In this document: in pieces, positions 28,824 to 37,689 of the stretch | Layout: each line of letters begins with the position of its first letter | Numbering within the stretch: the stretch's first letter is position 1 | NCBI GenBank assembly: GCA_950295325.1 | Contig: OX485803.1 | Coordinates: 18,414,001-18,478,000 of the forward strand | Direction of reading: 5' to 3' | Origin: Polytrichum commune | Taxonomy: Eukaryota; Streptophyta; Polytrichopsida; Polytrichales; Polytrichaceae | Length of the DNA: 64,000 nucleotides | The notes under the pieces: generated by a model | What the model was told of the DNA's origin: nothing | Databases searched by the model: none | What the model saw: only the letters and a program-made list of their open reading frames with translations | Translations under genes and position numbers: made by a program

Positions 28824-31800
28824 CCAAGTTGGCTATAGAATCTAGAATTGTTATCATATTTTGAGCATACAACCCTTTTTAACCGTTTATTGCCCCTAGT
28901 GACATGAGGGGTCATCTCTTGCCATGAGAGTGTTCTAGATGGCAACCTCACATCATCATCCAAGGCTCCCACTTGGCATGGTGATTCGTACATAATTCAA
29001 GAAGAGATAAGCACAAGTCCGATTAGATCTCAATTTGATATGAAAGAGTATGATGCTCCAAGGTGTATTTGATCCTTATAGAAGGTCACCAAAACTTGAG
29101 CAAGGTGGCAAGTTTTCTTGCCCATGAGTGTTGCCCCTTGTGAGAATCAAGTATCATTAGCAATTTGAGCAACAACCCAAAGCAAACATGCTCCAAAGAT
29201 GGCATTCCAATTCAATATGTGAGAAACTCATCATTTGGTCAATGAACTTTGAACCCCTCTAGAAGAGGCATATGAACTCCATATTTGAGAATTCAAATCT
29301 CACATTTATGTATTCCAATTTTGTGCATATTTTAATCAAGGGTTTACATCCATCCCATCATCCAAATATGGAAATAACAAGATTTTCACTAGCTGCCCCA
29401 ACTTCATAACTTCAAACTTTGCAACCAATGGATCTTAGATATGTTGGAATGATGATATTTTTGCTCCCACACTTCATTATGAAGTTACTTTCTACACACA
29501 AGTGGCCGATCAAAACAAATGTTGATGATAATGAGCTCAATCGCCCTCAAAATCAAGGGTGGTCGGAAAACACATCTTTTTGTATTTGTCCTTGGAGCCA
29601 CACTTTACCACATACCACTCAAATACGGGTGTCCGACAAAGATGAGTAATCAAATAAGGCATGTCTACCTTAGGACGAGGTAATGTCTTGAGTTGAGACT
29701 CACACGATTTCATAAGAAAGTGGTGCCACATTGCATCACTTCATTTTCTCATACTTTAAATTCAACTCCTCGTAAAAGTGTCTTGGGCCCAAATTTTACT
29801 CTCAACTCATAGGATTGCTCACTTTTGGAGTTTCTTTGGTCTTGGACTCTAATGCAAACTCACAATTAATGCACTGGGTTGAGAAACCATGCTATCTCCA
29901 ACCTTGAGCTCATCATCTTTCTCATCCTTTAATCAAACATGCAAAAAAGTAAAAGCCAGCTCGACTTTTGGCTCCAAGAAGTTTCAGTGAATGTAGATTA
30001 CAAGTTTTGGGTTGCGAAATGCTGTAATTTTGTTACCAAATATAATTGAAGGATGCTATGTTTTACATGGACAACACAACAGATAGTATGCACTTTGTAG
30101 AACATAAGAACACTTAACTTACATTCTTTTTGAGAAGTTATAGCACTGTGCAATTCGAAATGGTCATCCGGACTCACAAAAACAAGCATTGCAATAACAG
30201 CAATCAATCAACCAGAGTAGAGGCGCTCACAACCAGAAACTTCTTCGTACTTTAGAGAAAATGTTTTGTGTCACTATGTTAATCACCCTCAAGAAAATAT
30301 CATTGACACTAAAAGTCTTTCTTGTGATATATGTTATTCTCTTATATGAGCAAGCTATCTGTAGTTTGCGACATTCATCTCTCTGAATTGAGTACCATGG
30401 GGGGGGGGGTAGGATAAAACATTTGCCTCCCAAGGTTGTGGAGCACTAGACAAAAATAAATATGGCCACTGATGCTAAATCGTTAAGTGAGCTAAAGTAC
30501 GCTTAACTGATTTTTTAAAAGGTCCACTTCATTTCCCCTACCTAGTGGCTGCCACGCTACTTCTGCCTCATTCTCCCCACCTATTGAAAACGATTTGGAG
30601 TTCTTCGCATCAATCACTTTTGGGCAAGAGAGAAAAGAAACAGCTCTCCATAATATCAAGTCTTCTCAGAAACACCCTGGCTTTTGAAGGGAAAAACATA
30701 GACAACAGGTTCTTTGATCCAAATTATATGATTCAACCAGACTCAAAATGCACAAATATGACCTACAAGTGTTCACATAGGATAAGCAAAGTCTAATCAG
30801 AGCTATTCTAGAGTGAGAACCAGTTCAATCAAGATCATGAAAATTTCCTGATCCAGAGACACCCTCCAGAGTGTCGTGCACTACTTGTTTGATGTAGGAT
30901 CAGACTGAAGAACCTGTGTTAGTACGTCACAAAAACAGATGGCAGAGGTGATTCTTGTACGGGTATTATGAGAGCACCTGCAAATTATGGGAAGGAAAGG
31001 TTGCAGAAGATACCATCCAGACTATAACTGAAAACTTCTGAACCTCACATGGTAGTGTGTACACAGATCATCTTGACACCTCTCTAAGACCCCAACCGAG
31101 ACCTCACACATAATTTACCTGAGGGCTTACCTTGCACTTCACCTTCGCACAACGCCAATAATACCAGTGCAATGCACCATCTAGTAAAAATGTAGCAAGC
31201 CTCTGCACAAAAAATCTGGAATCCACCAGCCTTTCTTGTGCAGATCAATATCACAAATGTCAGTTAGCCATGTATGAGCAAACAGTACAGTTGATACCTT
31301 AAATATCAAAGCTGCACAGCACACCCACCATCTGATTAGACAGCTAGCACCTGCGCCCCTGCTGGGAGAAAAAGATTGGAAGATGAGCTGCCAGCACATA
31401 TGCCAGAAAAAGAAGAGGGACGGCAGGAGCAGCAAGAATCAGCTGAACTGCACACTTTGTGACCCAACAGATTTCGACAGAGACCCAGCAGCTGCAGCTC
31501 AGCTATTCCCAGAGTCGGCAGACAGCAACCACCACAGCTCAGCTACTACACCAGGATTATGGCGTATTCCCACGACCCCACTCAGCACTATCACAATACC
31601 CAAAGTATGAACATTCCAGGCATGTCAGACTGCTTCAAAGAGAATGTTCCCACACTCTTGTAAAATACCACTGTTCCCATTGACGTGTTTTGAACCTTCA
31701 CAGTTCTGTATAGAGCAGTCGATAAAGGAAGCAGAATCTAGAAACTACTCTAATGATACCTGTCTCCCTGTAAGATGAAAAAAATCGTCTTGTGTCCTAG

Positions 31801-32462
31801 ATCTGAGGATAGATGTAAACTGTGGAAGCTGGAGCACCCTTATCATAACCGTATCATAACCCTCTACCCTCTAAATTCCAGCACGATCCTACTGTTGCAA
31901 ACTACAAGGGAGACAAACCAGGTCAACAAACTAACCAGCCAAACACATCCACAATGATGAAACCTGCCAATTCAGTAACTTCCTGCTCTCCATCCATTCA
32001 CCAACTAGAGCTGGCTCCATTAGTTCCCAAAATGCTTAACATTTCCTGCCCAATGATGCTGCATAAAACACAAGTTGCCATATTACTATATATGAGGTGC
32101 CTTATTCTACAAAGTTCCAGGCCAGCTTAAAGCTAAAGCTTTAAAACCATTACATAAAATCCATGTTTCAGATTCCATTTAATTTTTTTTAATACATCTC
32201 ATTTAAACAGGCAACTAATCTCCTACTCAGTACATTGCAGCAAATGACAAGATAACTTTTATGATGTATCAAAATGTTCAAAGTTGGATTCAAATTCAAG
32301 TTCAACTGTAATGGCGTCTCGCTTAACACACTTATGAAAGATAAGAATCACCGAGCCCAGAAGGTATAAGTTGGTTTAAAGTGATTCATTCCACAAGGAT
32401 GTAGTGCTCAGAAAGAAGATAAAGTGCACAAAGCTCAGGATGGTAGAATGTCTATGTAACCT
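28824..32462. other. Intergenic DNA downstream of the SR protein gene
   Basis: Only short frames without domains are seen. The part near 32.0-32.46 kb should include the 3' UTR of the minus-strand SR protein gene. A G-homopolymer of about 10 lies near 30400. A fragment near 29605 (ACCACTCAAATACGGGTGTC) recurs in diverged form near 52961 inside a CFAP43 intron, so dispersed repeats are present here too. Confidence 0.5.
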
Positions 32463-35400
32463 TTAGGGGCCATCAGAAGGGGCTGGAGAGGAACTATGAG
32501 GCGGTTCAGGGGTACTCGTGCGAGGTTGCCCTGGAGAAAGACTACGTTGACGGGGTGAGATGCTCCTGTTGTCTGGTGAAGCTGACATTTCACGTCCAGT
32601 TGGTGACAATATGTGATCTGGTGATTCACTACCCCTGTGTGAAACAACATATTTGTGAGATATTTCCAAGATTCAGATATGGCTCAAACCAGGATTGTAG
32701 AAATCCATGGTTGGCAGACTTCACAAGAAATTGCAGCTGTTCATAAGAGCAAGATTCCTATGCATCCAGTAAATTTCATCCTATTTGAAAGTGGCTATAC
32801 AGTGCAAGTGGAAGCCTAGGTGGCAAACCCTGGCAGTGGCTTGATGAGATAACTTGCCTGACAGGTGACAAGTCCCCATTTCTTACAGCCACCTCTTTCA
32901 CTGGCTCTTCTGAGTCTGAGCGCCTGCCTGGACTTCGACTCATGCTCCGGCTAGGACTGCAAGAAACATTCTTTCTCCATGGGCTGGTGCTTGGCTTTCT
33001 TCGAGGACTGACTGCCCTCCTTGGACTGCAGTACAAAAGAGCAAAAGAGACCTCATGTTGTCAAAAATAGTACACAAAATTTTGCCTTTGAGAAAGAGAA
33101 TTGGGATAGGCAATTGAGATCCCATAATGTATTCGCCCCTAAAGGGTGAGACAAGTAATATCTGGAAAATACACACATCTTTGATAAATCATGTTCATGT
33201 AATCCTAAAGTACCTGTGGCTTTCATGAGGAGAAGCCTTTGGTCTGTCTGACATGCTACGGGATGTCCGCTTGACATCCACATCACCACGACCGCTTCGG
33301 CTTCGGCTTCGGCTGCGACTGCAGTTTCGGCTACGGCTTCGGCTCTGGCTTCGGCTGCGGCTCCGACTAAGGCTTCGGGTTGGACTGCGGCGTCGTGAGC
33401 TGTATCCCCTCTCTCTCTCCCGTTCCCCACCACGATATCTCTCTCGCTCATCACGATATTTATCCCTGTCCTCACGATACCTATCACGCTCATCACGATC
33501 CCGGCTGCGTCGGCGATAATCTCTTGCATACCGATCATCATCCTTGCTGGACTTTAGATCCCGGCTGCAGACAATCATTTATCCAGTCAACATCATAAGG
33601 AGACTTATATACCATCATAAGAAAGAACAGAGACATGGCAAGAAGACCAGTGAATGAGGACAAGAAGGTAACATGTAGACAGAAACAAATTCAACAATTT
33701 GAAAATTGAACCAGAGTAAACTATATACAAAAATAATTGTTCCTTAGTCTTATGTTCTTTTCTTTGGTTGCCATGGTGACATTGAGGGTTCGTCCTGTTT
33801 CTCAAGTGAAAATAATATATTTCTAGCTGAATCTGAATTCTTCAACTCCAATTCCGAGGTCAATATTTCTAACTAGATTGACCCTTGAATTGCTCAAAAT
33901 CAGGGAAATTGAAGAATGAAACCACTGATGAGTAATTCTCATGACAAGGAATGACACAATGCCAGCAGACTACTCTACTAATGAACAATATATCTGTACA
34001 TAATGTGCACACCAGCCACTTGATGAGTCCAATAGGCAATTGAGACAACATCACACCATCATCTTAGACATAAATTGAAACAAGAAATAAATATACCTTG
34101 CACGCTTTGGGCTGCGGCTTCTGGATCTGCTAACTCTTTTCAGGTTTGCTTCAGTTATTCTTCCTCGTTGACTGCAAATCACCAGATTGAAAGGTGATGA
34201 AAAGTCTGAGTAGATCTGCAGACTAAAAGAACTCTTTTGCAGTGATGTACCATTATCGATGTAGTGTTACTTAGACATCACCATAACAGCACTTGCTGCT
34301 ACCATCAATATATGCAATGGCCACAATCGCGATGAAAATACTCATATACATCAGCTGGCACTCATCACTGAACTTCAAATTTGAACCTGGAAGCACACCA
34401 ATTACTATCCACTGACTTCTTATCTGGTGCCCATCTAACAAATACGAGATTTCATCTACATTGCCTGTAGTAGCTTGTTATCTGAGAAAGTATTAGCACC
34501 AATCTACACCATAAACTGAACACTTTAAGAAACAGTAGAAAATGTGCAATTGACAGACAGCTGCATCTATTAAGATACAGCAAGCCTGTCTGCTTACTTG
34601 TAAGGCCCATGCTATAAGTAGACCCCACACGATGGCAAAGGAACCATATGTTCATGATGTACAATATAACCTTTTTGTGCACATATCTAGACCTGGTTGC
34701 ACAATTTTGGGGACAGATTGGACTCCCTTTCCAAGGGTTGCTTCATGGCTGCCAGACTATGACAGCAGATCTTAGTAAGAGACTCACATTGGCTCATCCT
34801 TTCGACCATACTTCGCAAACTGCACCACGATGTGTCTTCCATCAACAGTCCTACCTGCATCAAACCAACATACATAAAGGAGGTATTAGGTAACATCAAA
34901 TCACTTACATGGTCTCCATCGCCCGACCATACTTCGCATACTGAACCACCATGTCTCGCCCATCAACATTTCTGCCTGCATCGTGGAAAATCAGGTGCGG
35001 AAACAACTTAGATGTGGCTTGGAGAAGTCTGCCACATACGTTGACTGCTATTAAGAACTAGGACTCCGACCACACAAGTTCAACCAAGTGGCTGCTTGGC
35101 AGTACTTGTGATTTACCACATATTATATGAGATATCTCTACAATAGTGTCCGATAAAACTATCCTGTTAGGGGATGTAGAGGAGCCAACACTGAAGGTGA
35201 TAAGAAGGATTGGTGGGAAACCATCTAGGCGCTCTATTGCCTTCTGTGCCTCGTCAGCATACTTGTATCGTACGAATGCAAATCCTCGAGATTCTCCAGT
35301 CCTGACAAGATGACAGAATTTCCGGAAGTTAGGTCAAGATCGTCAACAACGACAACACAGGAAGAGATGGTTGATTCAAAAATACTAACAGCACCGAGCA

Positions 35401-36685
35401 TCAAGAAGAAAGGGAAAATAAATTAGGCCAATGCAGTCCATTATGGTTGCCTAATCAGTCCAAATAGAGTTATCGATCCAGCGATGAAAATGAATAACAC
35501 ACTCAAATGTTTTCCTAACAACATCTTCTACCTAAGAGAGATCGTTGCAGCGTAATATACCCTTATGAGACACCCTTACCTACGATCTCTTGGGATGAAA
35601 ATATCAACCACCTTCCCGTAACGGTCAAATAAGGGATAGAGATCATCTGCACTTGTTCCTGCAAACGAGGCAATCGGAATGAGAGAAGCGTAGGCAAAAA
35701 CGCTAGGACATCATCAAAATCGAGTTCCACGTGCTACTCACAAAGGAAAGAAAGGTGGCTGTCAGGAATGTAATAGACCGAAAACTGCGTCCAAAATAAT
35801 AAAAACGGAATTCACGCAATTGCAAAGCCTCTCACACGCAGGGGAGGTGACGGGAACCGAAACATAAGTTGTCTAAATCATTGAAGTAGAAAATGCACAG
35901 AAGATTGACTTCTAAATTACAACATGAACGTCAAGACGAACTTCAAGAAGCATCTATCGCTTTGTTTTACACACAACAAGAAATCCTCGTGCTTCAACCA
36001 CGAAGTAATGGAAGCTAATGGACAGAACACTGCGTTTGACATTAAAAATTTTGGAAAATCTAAAATTGCAAAACCTCTCACACGCAGGGGAGGTAGGAAC
36101 TGAAACATGAGTTCTCTAAGTCTTCAAAGTAGAAGACGCACAGAAGACTTTCCATGAACATTGACTTCTAAAACACAACATGAACGTCAAGACGAACTTC
36201 AAGAAGCACCTATCGCTTTGCTTTATGCACAAGAAGAAAATCCTCGTGCTTGCTTCAACCACGGAGCTTACTTACGAACCATGCCGCAGCAATGAAGAAG
36301 AGGCGCAATAAATGAAATAAAGAAACAAACAACTATCCGACAACAACGTCATCATCAATCAAGAAAATGATGATGCACGTCAGCCAAAGGTTTTCGCAAA
36401 CGAGAAATCGCGAGCAGCAATTTAATCAGAAATAACAGAAAACATCCAATGAAACTCGTGGAGAATGATTACCTACTCCGCTATGTCCAGAAGAAAAACT
36501 CCAAAAAAGAAAAAGAAAAAGACTCCAAAAAGTATCAAAAATCAAGCCGTCACGTCTCGAAGAACAATGCAATGGCGTTTGTATAAATCCGTCGCGCAAA
36601 ACTACTTACGGAAGGTGATGTTGAGCACGAGCAGGGAATACGTGTCCCTGATGTCCGGAGGGCCAGCTCTTCCGAAGTGCGACAT
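32463..36685 (-). CDS. SC35-like serine/arginine-rich splicing factor
   Basis: I model eight coding exons per transcript (minus strand, first to last): 36610-36685, 35580-35658, 35222-35301, one of 34909-34975 or 34788-34854, 34097-34171, 33214-33564, 32858-33025 and 32463-32634. All phases agree and give 355 aa. The start MSHFGRAGPPDIRDTYSLLV is diagnostic of plant SC35 (SRSF2-type). The RRM covers about residues 16-95, with RNP2 LLVLNI (18-23) and RNP1 RGFAFVRY (57-64). An RS domain follows with SRSRSRSPKR, a long RDRDERDRYR-type alternation and a run of SR dipeptides, then a C-terminal SP-rich tail ending PAPSDGP. SR proteins of this type bind pre-mRNA through the RRM and recruit U1 and U2AF in the nucleus. 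Intron 7 uses a GC donor. Two tandem versions of exon 4 exist. The 951-nt first intron holds a 0.25-kb duplication. Confidence 0.95.
32635..32857 (-). other. GC-AG intron (intron 7 of the SR gene)
   Basis: The upstream exon ends CCTGTCAG and the intron starts GCAAGT. The acceptor is CACACAG before GGGTAGTG. Phase 2 on both sides rejoins AG with G to make Arg and continues GSESPDH. A GT donor in a matching phase is not seen nearby. The flanking AG/GCAAGT is the strong exon-side consensus that GC donors need. Confidence 0.8.
34788..34854 (-). other. SR gene alternative exon 4b (67 nt)
   Basis: The exon encodes G-RTVDGRHIVVQFAKYGRKDEP, the last beta strand of the RRM and the start of the linker. 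It enters in phase 1 after a TGCAG acceptor and leaves in phase 2 at AT/GTGAGT. It matches exon 4a in length and phase and differs at 7 of 21 whole codons at the protein level. The phenylalanine in VQFAKYG is the residue found in canonical plant SC35. Confidence 0.9.
34909..34975 (-). other. SR gene alternative exon 4a (67 nt)
   Basis: The exon encodes G-RNVDGRDMVVQYAKYGRAMET. It has the same entry phase (1), exit phase (2) and length as exon 4b, and ends AT/GTAAGT. It is separated from 4b by just 54 nt. The charge at the start of the linker differs from 4b (RAMET against RKDEP), and Tyr replaces Phe in the last beta strand. Confidence 0.9.
35780..36270. repeat. Tandem duplication of about 245 bp in SR gene intron 1
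   Basis: Two copies share CCTCTCACACGCAGGGGAGG and ATGAACGTCAAGACGAACTT and CCTCGTGCTT in the same order. They differ by substitutions and small indels. Both lie within the first intron of the SR gene on its non-coding strand, and no exon-like frame is created. Confidence 0.88.
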
Positions 36686-37689
36686 GCTTTGGTATTGGTG
36701 TTGGCGGTGGTGCCCTGGTCCGCCGGTCTCGCGAAAGAAATTAGCACAGCGCAATCGGTGTAGGAAGGTAGCAAGGGGAGAACGTGCAACTCCTAAAAGG
36801 GGAGAGAAGAGGAGAATGGAGCTATGATGGGAGGAAGAGTTGCAAAAAGAGTGAAGAGCACGCCATAGCCGGAAGAAATAGCGAGAGCGTGGCCATGGTC
36901 GCTTTGTTCCTCCGTCCCTAACTACCAAAGTTCTGGTGCCTTCCTTTCTTTCCTTCGAGCCAGGTGGCGAATCACCTTGCTTTGTGCCCATGCTGTTTTT
37001 ACTTTAATTCCTCCGCACTACACTTGCCTGTTGCGAACTAGCTTTTATCCTTTGGAGAGTAGGAATTATCGCATACTGGGTATCGCTCATAATATATTCA
37101 TCCAGCATAAAAGCCTTGGAAATAGCATGCATTCCATATTATTCTATTTTTAGTTTATTGGCTTTGTCATGTGGGATGAGATCTAGGGGTGGTCTCTTAA
37201 ATGGGCCACAGTCTAGCAACCAACCGAAACCGGTCATATTTGGTTTTAGTAATAGCCCGCCCACACCTGCTAGTGGGAGGGCTAGTCGCAGGCTCCCACC
37301 AGCAGGGGGCCACTTTTCAACTCACTTTTCCCACCGGCTGCGACTGGGCGCAACCAACGCGCCCATCGCCCGTTCACTGTCACAATCGACGAGAGTTAAC
37401 TTGCATTTCTTTTGGACTATTAGCGGCGAGTGAATTACGATTGAGGCGAACCGGCAATTAGTTACAAAAGTATGGACGATTTTGAGAAATAACCGGTGGA
37501 AGTTCAAGACTGCAGGAAAATTACCCAATCATGTTAGACGAATTTATAGAATATACCCCAACTGAATATAGGAAAACCGGAGGATGTCAACATGTAACTG
37601 GTTGGCCCGAATTATCTTGTTTGTTTTTGACAATGAAACAAACTTGGTTCATTTTTCCTAAAATGAAGTGACATTTTTAAACTAAAAGT

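Follow-up and report, generated by a model that had tools for sequence, protein, structure and literature searches.

In a 64,000-nt window of the Polytrichum commune genome (OX485803.1, 18,414,001-18,478,000, forward strand), the fourth coding exon of a gene for an SC35-type SR splicing factor is doubled, and an intact protein needs exactly one of the two copies, exons 4a and 4b. We consider it probable that they form a mutually exclusive pair in which exclusion is sterically enforced. The anatomy and evolution of the pair support mutual exclusion, and from the same comparisons we infer that both exons are used. Coordinates given without a prefix are positions in the window, and the gene and all its parts lie on the minus strand.

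A doubled fourth exon and its reading frame

Exon 4a (34975-34909; 67 nt) encodes GRNVDGRDMVVQYAKYGRAMET and is followed by a 54-nt spacer (34908-34855) and by exon 4b (34854-34788; 67 nt), which encodes GRTVDGRHIVVQFAKYGRKDEP. The spacer runs from the donor GTAAGT through a candidate branch point, CTAAT, with its A at nt 23, to the acceptor GATGCAG. The same GATGCAG stands directly before exon 4a, GTGAGT follows exon 4b, and AG/GT is found at every border of the two exons, which are thus equal-length homologous neighbours with intact splice sites. Aligned without gaps, they are identical at 50/67 positions. The next-best match to either exon was 31/67 within the gene (36800-32300) and 37/67 anywhere in the window, which excludes chance similarity of 4a and 4b. 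No third copy of exon 4 stood out in a similarity scan of the SC35 gene.

Exon 3 ends in phase 1, and therefore 4a alone or 4b alone restores the frame into coding exon 5 (34171-34097; 75 nt), the downstream partner common to both. With either exon the full frame runs to the stop codon, giving 355 aa in both isoforms. When 4a and 4b are joined the junction reads ATG TAG, and when both are skipped the frame reads GTC AAC GAG GAA GAA TAA. Retention of the spacer gives an immediate ATG TAA, the TAA being read within the donor GTAAGT. The original prediction, made from the letters of the window, had described two homologous 67-nt exons lying 54 nt apart in these phases; its coordinates proved correct to the base, and the stops that it placed at the double-inclusion junction and at the sixth codon after double skipping were reproduced when the exons were joined accordingly. 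Spacer retention was absent from it, and with this third product included its claim that exactly one exon is needed for protein stands, as inclusion of both, inclusion of neither and a retained spacer all lead to an early stop.

Conservation of the pair in an old paralogue

A search of the 407.8-Mb assembly, of which C1-C7 hold 406.1 Mb, with the DNA of the exon pair gave matches at three places: in the window, at C2:21.866 Mb (C2a) and at C2:61.911 Mb (C2b). C2a is a complete gene of 337 aa that agrees with the window gene in exon structure and in its 67-54-67 block, both frames of which are open, and it is the sole other intact SC35 gene found in the genome. Single inclusion alone keeps the frame in C2a, as in the window gene. 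C2b (L005, C2:61907500-61913500) also carries a block of the 67-54-67 type, with 4a short by one base; a match to exon 1 was absent from the 6 kb examined and exons 2 and 6 contain frame-breaking gaps, which indicates that C2b is a decayed copy of C2a. Protein searches returned 7 and 64 matches, with at most 56% identity outside the three places, and therefore 4a or 4b must be the ordinary exon in this species. Neither a processed mRNA copy recording the splicing nor any contiguous spliced copy was present among the 64 protein-search matches. Four RRM loci other than SC35 were examined (L036, L037, L040 and L049), three of which (L036, L040 and L049) look by eye like two-RRM chloroplast-type proteins.

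The window gene and C2a are old duplicates. Synonymous sites had changed between them at 6/34 positions in the exon pair versus 133/231 in the other exons (p = 1.3e-5), and their spacers align free of gaps with 41/54 positions identical. The conserved block (35010-34711) starts about 35 nt ahead of 4a and continues, weakening, for about 77 nt beyond 4b; the remaining intron sequence can for the most part not be aligned between the window gene and C2a. The prediction that the exons are mutually exclusive gains from this comparison, as the old paralogue keeps the 67-54-67 arrangement, the frames, the CTAAT site, the synonymous sites and the nearest flanks.

Spacer, branch point candidate and intron sizes

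CTAAT is the sole CTRAY match in the spacer. In each of the three copies its A stands 23 nt from the donor, 31 nt before the end of the acceptor. In both intact genes, a CTGAT lies 15 nt from the end of the 4a acceptor. Animal spliceosomes require about 50 nt from donor to branch point, and at 35 nt their assembly was abolished (PMC6692369; for this and the other papers cited, our statements refer to the portions of text available). At nt 23 in the three copies, the candidate CTAAT falls within the distance of less than about 50 nt from donor to branch point that characterizes the steric class.

Introns in this genome were estimated from 76 gaps between adjacent kinesin or myosin exons, using 97 kinesin rows among the matches listed (of 151) and 38 myosin rows (of 49) and excluding isolated rows and several matches that read across an intron. 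Estimated introns were at least 108 nt, with a median of 222 nt. Since read-through matches could hide short introns, 108 nt is to be taken as the smallest of 76 estimates and not as a sign that the genome has no short intron; no GTRAG donor occurred in four of the listed kinesin matches, which contain internal stops and are only 21-36 nt longer than the model. The 54-nt spacer is half the smallest intron estimated. With a candidate branch point 23 nt from the donor and a smallest estimated intron of 108 nt, joining of 4a to 4b is probably blocked. A spacer below the usual intron size, fitting steric exclusion, had been part of the original prediction, and the likely branch point only 23 nt from the donor makes that argument stronger than was stated there.

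We propose that tandem duplication of the exon encoding the last RRM strand and the linker gave rise to the pair. With its branch point predicted about 23 nt from the 4a donor, 4b would leave too little room for spliceosome assembly, so that 4a and 4b could not be joined, and the weak donor of exon 3 would have to choose one of two acceptors. This donor (ATG/GTTTCC) agrees with the consensus at 4/9 positions, the lowest in the window gene, and the exon 3 donor is likewise the lowest in C2a; such a weak site could make the choice of acceptor slow and open to regulation. Mis-joined products would be removed by nonsense-mediated decay (NMD), and the choice of exon would yield two SC35 proteins.

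In Dscam clusters, exon exclusion is achieved by competing RNA structures. That such structures, instead of spacing, keep 4a and 4b apart is improbable in the extreme. Pairing elements could lie in the conserved flanks of 4a and 4b, but both intact genes fold no better than shuffled sequence (z +2.2 and +1.1), giving an RNA-structure switch no folding support, and the covariation term was unfavourable to competing structures over three sequences, a number with little power. No known RNA family was detected in 29500-36700 at gathering score.

Selection on each exon and other possible roles of exon 4b

Exon 4b has kept its length, phase and open frame in both intact genes. Were its 8 changes neutral, 5.5 amino-acid changes would be expected, and 3 are seen (P = 0.045); of 20,000 neutral runs with equally many changes in 4b, 27% gained a stop. 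On these data, use of both exons is probable, perhaps with a preference for 4a.

Several observations weigh against a sterically enforced pair of two working exons. Nonsynonymous divergence (dN) is 0.08 in 4b versus 0.02 in 4a, marking 4b as the less constrained, and in C2a a Ser replaces Phe in the fourth strand. The raw spacer identity of 76% does not stand out from the 75% that shuffled sequence attains when gaps are allowed, and the signal in this comparison is carried by the ungapped alignment and its score. Synonymous change is also low in exon 3 (6/20, p = 0.016), where gene conversion is possible, and mismatches between C2a and C2b are uneven, at 0/64 aligned bases in 4a, 26/282 in exon 6 and 5/175 in exon 8. 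Gene conversion between paralogues could explain part of the conservation of the pair; for the patchy C2a-C2b divergence, both gene conversion and leftover constraint are possible. CTAAT is a likely branch point by motif match, and as such a candidate; looser YTNAY matches occur in the spacer of the window gene at nt 13, 34 and 49 and in that of C2a at nt 9, 38 and 49. The 50-nt rule for the distance from donor to branch point is animal-derived.

The patchy divergence, with 4a free of mismatches and exon 6 rich in them, would fit a passive history in which 4b is a functionless chance tandem duplication and the block was kept similar by gene conversion between paralogues. We regard this as very unlikely, given that good splice sites, length and frame survive the old duplication in both exons, that 27% of neutral runs gain a stop, and that the CTAAT site and the spacer length are kept.

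Exon 4b might instead act without contributing much protein. On this account the working exon is 4a, and 4b and the spacer together serve as a regulatory decoy, an autoregulatory poison cassette by which SC35 would be lowered through NMD; 4b would be used with 4a, either joined or as one 188-nt spacer-retained exon, and 4b-only protein would be minor. In the window gene and in C2a alike, translation of the joined and retained forms would end at the junction or close to it, and conservation is higher in 4a than in 4b. GAAGA is present in 4b and not in 4a in both intact genes, and resembles AGAAGA, a reported motif of Arabidopsis SC35/SCL proteins (PMC5362245). However, a decoy needs none of the length, phase and open frame kept by 4b, nor its sub-neutral amino-acid change, and the exact AGAAGA is absent from 4a and 4b; we therefore judge this account unlikely. 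With GAAGA present but the full AGAAGA absent, feedback of SC35 on exon choice is a suggestion only.

The SC35 gene and its protein

The complete SC35-type gene spans 36685-32463 and has nine coding exons, counting 4a and 4b; gene models were built on splice signals, open frame and the agreement of the two paralogues. Upstream of the pair are coding exons 1 (36685-36610; 76 nt), with the start codon, 2 (35658-35580; 79 nt) and 3 (35301-35222; 80 nt). Downstream of exon 5 are exon 6 (33564-33214; 351 nt), which encodes the RS region, exon 7 (33025-32858; 168 nt), with the donor GCAAGT, and exon 8 (32634-32463; 172 nt), with the stop codon. The intron that follows exon 7 starts with GCAAGT in the window gene (32857-32849) and with GTAGCC in C2a, and is thus GC-AG on one side. 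Within intron 1 of the window gene, about 200 nt are directly repeated at 81% identity (36266-36064 and 36005-35818).

Past the stop codon, two stretches are shared by the window gene and C2a, one of 39 nt at 100% identity (31954-31916, minus strand; C2:21864078-21864040) and one of 375 columns at 80% identity (31617-31252, minus strand; C2:21863720-21863352), and the sequence around both does not align. A genome search with 32000-31380 gave matches in the window and C2a only, and there was no Rfam match. These stretches are possibly conserved elements of the 3' untranslated region or a separate noncoding RNA.

The protein has a single N-terminal RRM (PF00076, E 8.7e-20, residues 18-86), for which the best full-RRM match by a single stretch is SRSF2 (2LEA). 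The definition of SR proteins calls for an RS region that is 50 aa or longer and has an RS/SR content of 20% or more (PMC7105729); residues in RS/SR dipeptides make up 62% of the best 50-aa segment in the window gene and 54% in C2a. The N-terminal charged extension that marks SCL proteins is absent, the RRM match starting at residue 18 of the modelled protein. By every feature tested the protein belongs to the plant SC subfamily (SC35/SRSF2-like) of SR proteins, in line with the SC35-like SR protein named in the original prediction. Physcomitrella has four SC-subfamily members (PMC7105729).

The 4a and 4b isoforms differ at 7 residues (81, 86, 87, 91, 97, 98 and 100), which places the difference at the RRM end and linker, where it had been expected. 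At its very end, the alignment with SRSF2 pairs residues 97-98 with the Pro-Pro of 2LEA, which we take to be Pro95-Pro96 in human SRSF2 numbering; residue 97, the one paired with Pro95, is Ala in 4a and Lys in 4b. As the differing residues include this position, the isoforms may differ in RNA preference.

Comparison with known systems

Mutually exclusive tandem exons are a known kind of arrangement, and the RRM of a general splicing factor is an unusual place for them. The original prediction knew of no description in plant SC35, and we found none of a 4a/4b-type pair in the available text of the open-access literature searched on mutually exclusive exons and plant and moss SC35, including PMC7105729, PMC5457400, PMC3173450 and PMC5362245. 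If a sterically enforced pair is the true explanation, then plants use steric exon exclusion, and a core SR protein alters its own RNA-contacting end by splicing, with the pair kept in both intact genes. The switch would fall on the counterpart of SRSF2 Pro95, a residue at which mutation rewires splicing in human leukaemia. A further and rather doubtful extension would make SC35 a self-switching splicing factor, in which the steric pair was held through an old duplication, two RNA preferences are set at the Pro95 position and the choice depends on SC35 itself via the 4b-specific GAAGA, so that one locus would serve as both specificity switch and level control.

SRSF2 Pro95 mutants favour CCNG over GGNG (PMC6128865). 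Those changes are somatic mutations in human, whereas here neither isoform has proline at the position.

Descriptions of mutually exclusive exon pairs in plants seem to be rare, and FLM is the one found in the literature searched. Exons 2 and 3 of Arabidopsis FLM/MAF1 are, like 4a and 4b, a plant mutually exclusive pair of which either form is coding (PMC5853260, PMC3266260). FLM/MAF1 is, however, a MADS transcription factor, and exon duplication and a spacer mechanism are unmentioned in the available text of these two papers. In vertebrate OGDH exons 4a/4b and in alpha-tropomyosin, a branch point near the upstream donor enforces exclusion (PMC7969005, PMC6692369), as we propose here; the OGDH branch points lie 25-41 nt from the donor (PMC7969005), compared with about 23 nt for CTAAT. 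These are animal metabolic and muscle genes with mapped branch points, whereas the branch point here is predicted from its motif.

The closest functional parallel is vertebrate U2AF1. It is an unrelated gene, regulated via branch point, polypyrimidine tract and SR proteins, and no steric block is described in the available text of PMC5224494. Like SC35, U2AF1 (U2AF35) is a splicing factor, and it carries tandem duplicated exons, Ab and 3, in an RRM-like (UHM) domain; a protein is made with either of them, and NMD lowers the level of transcripts that include both (PMC5224494).
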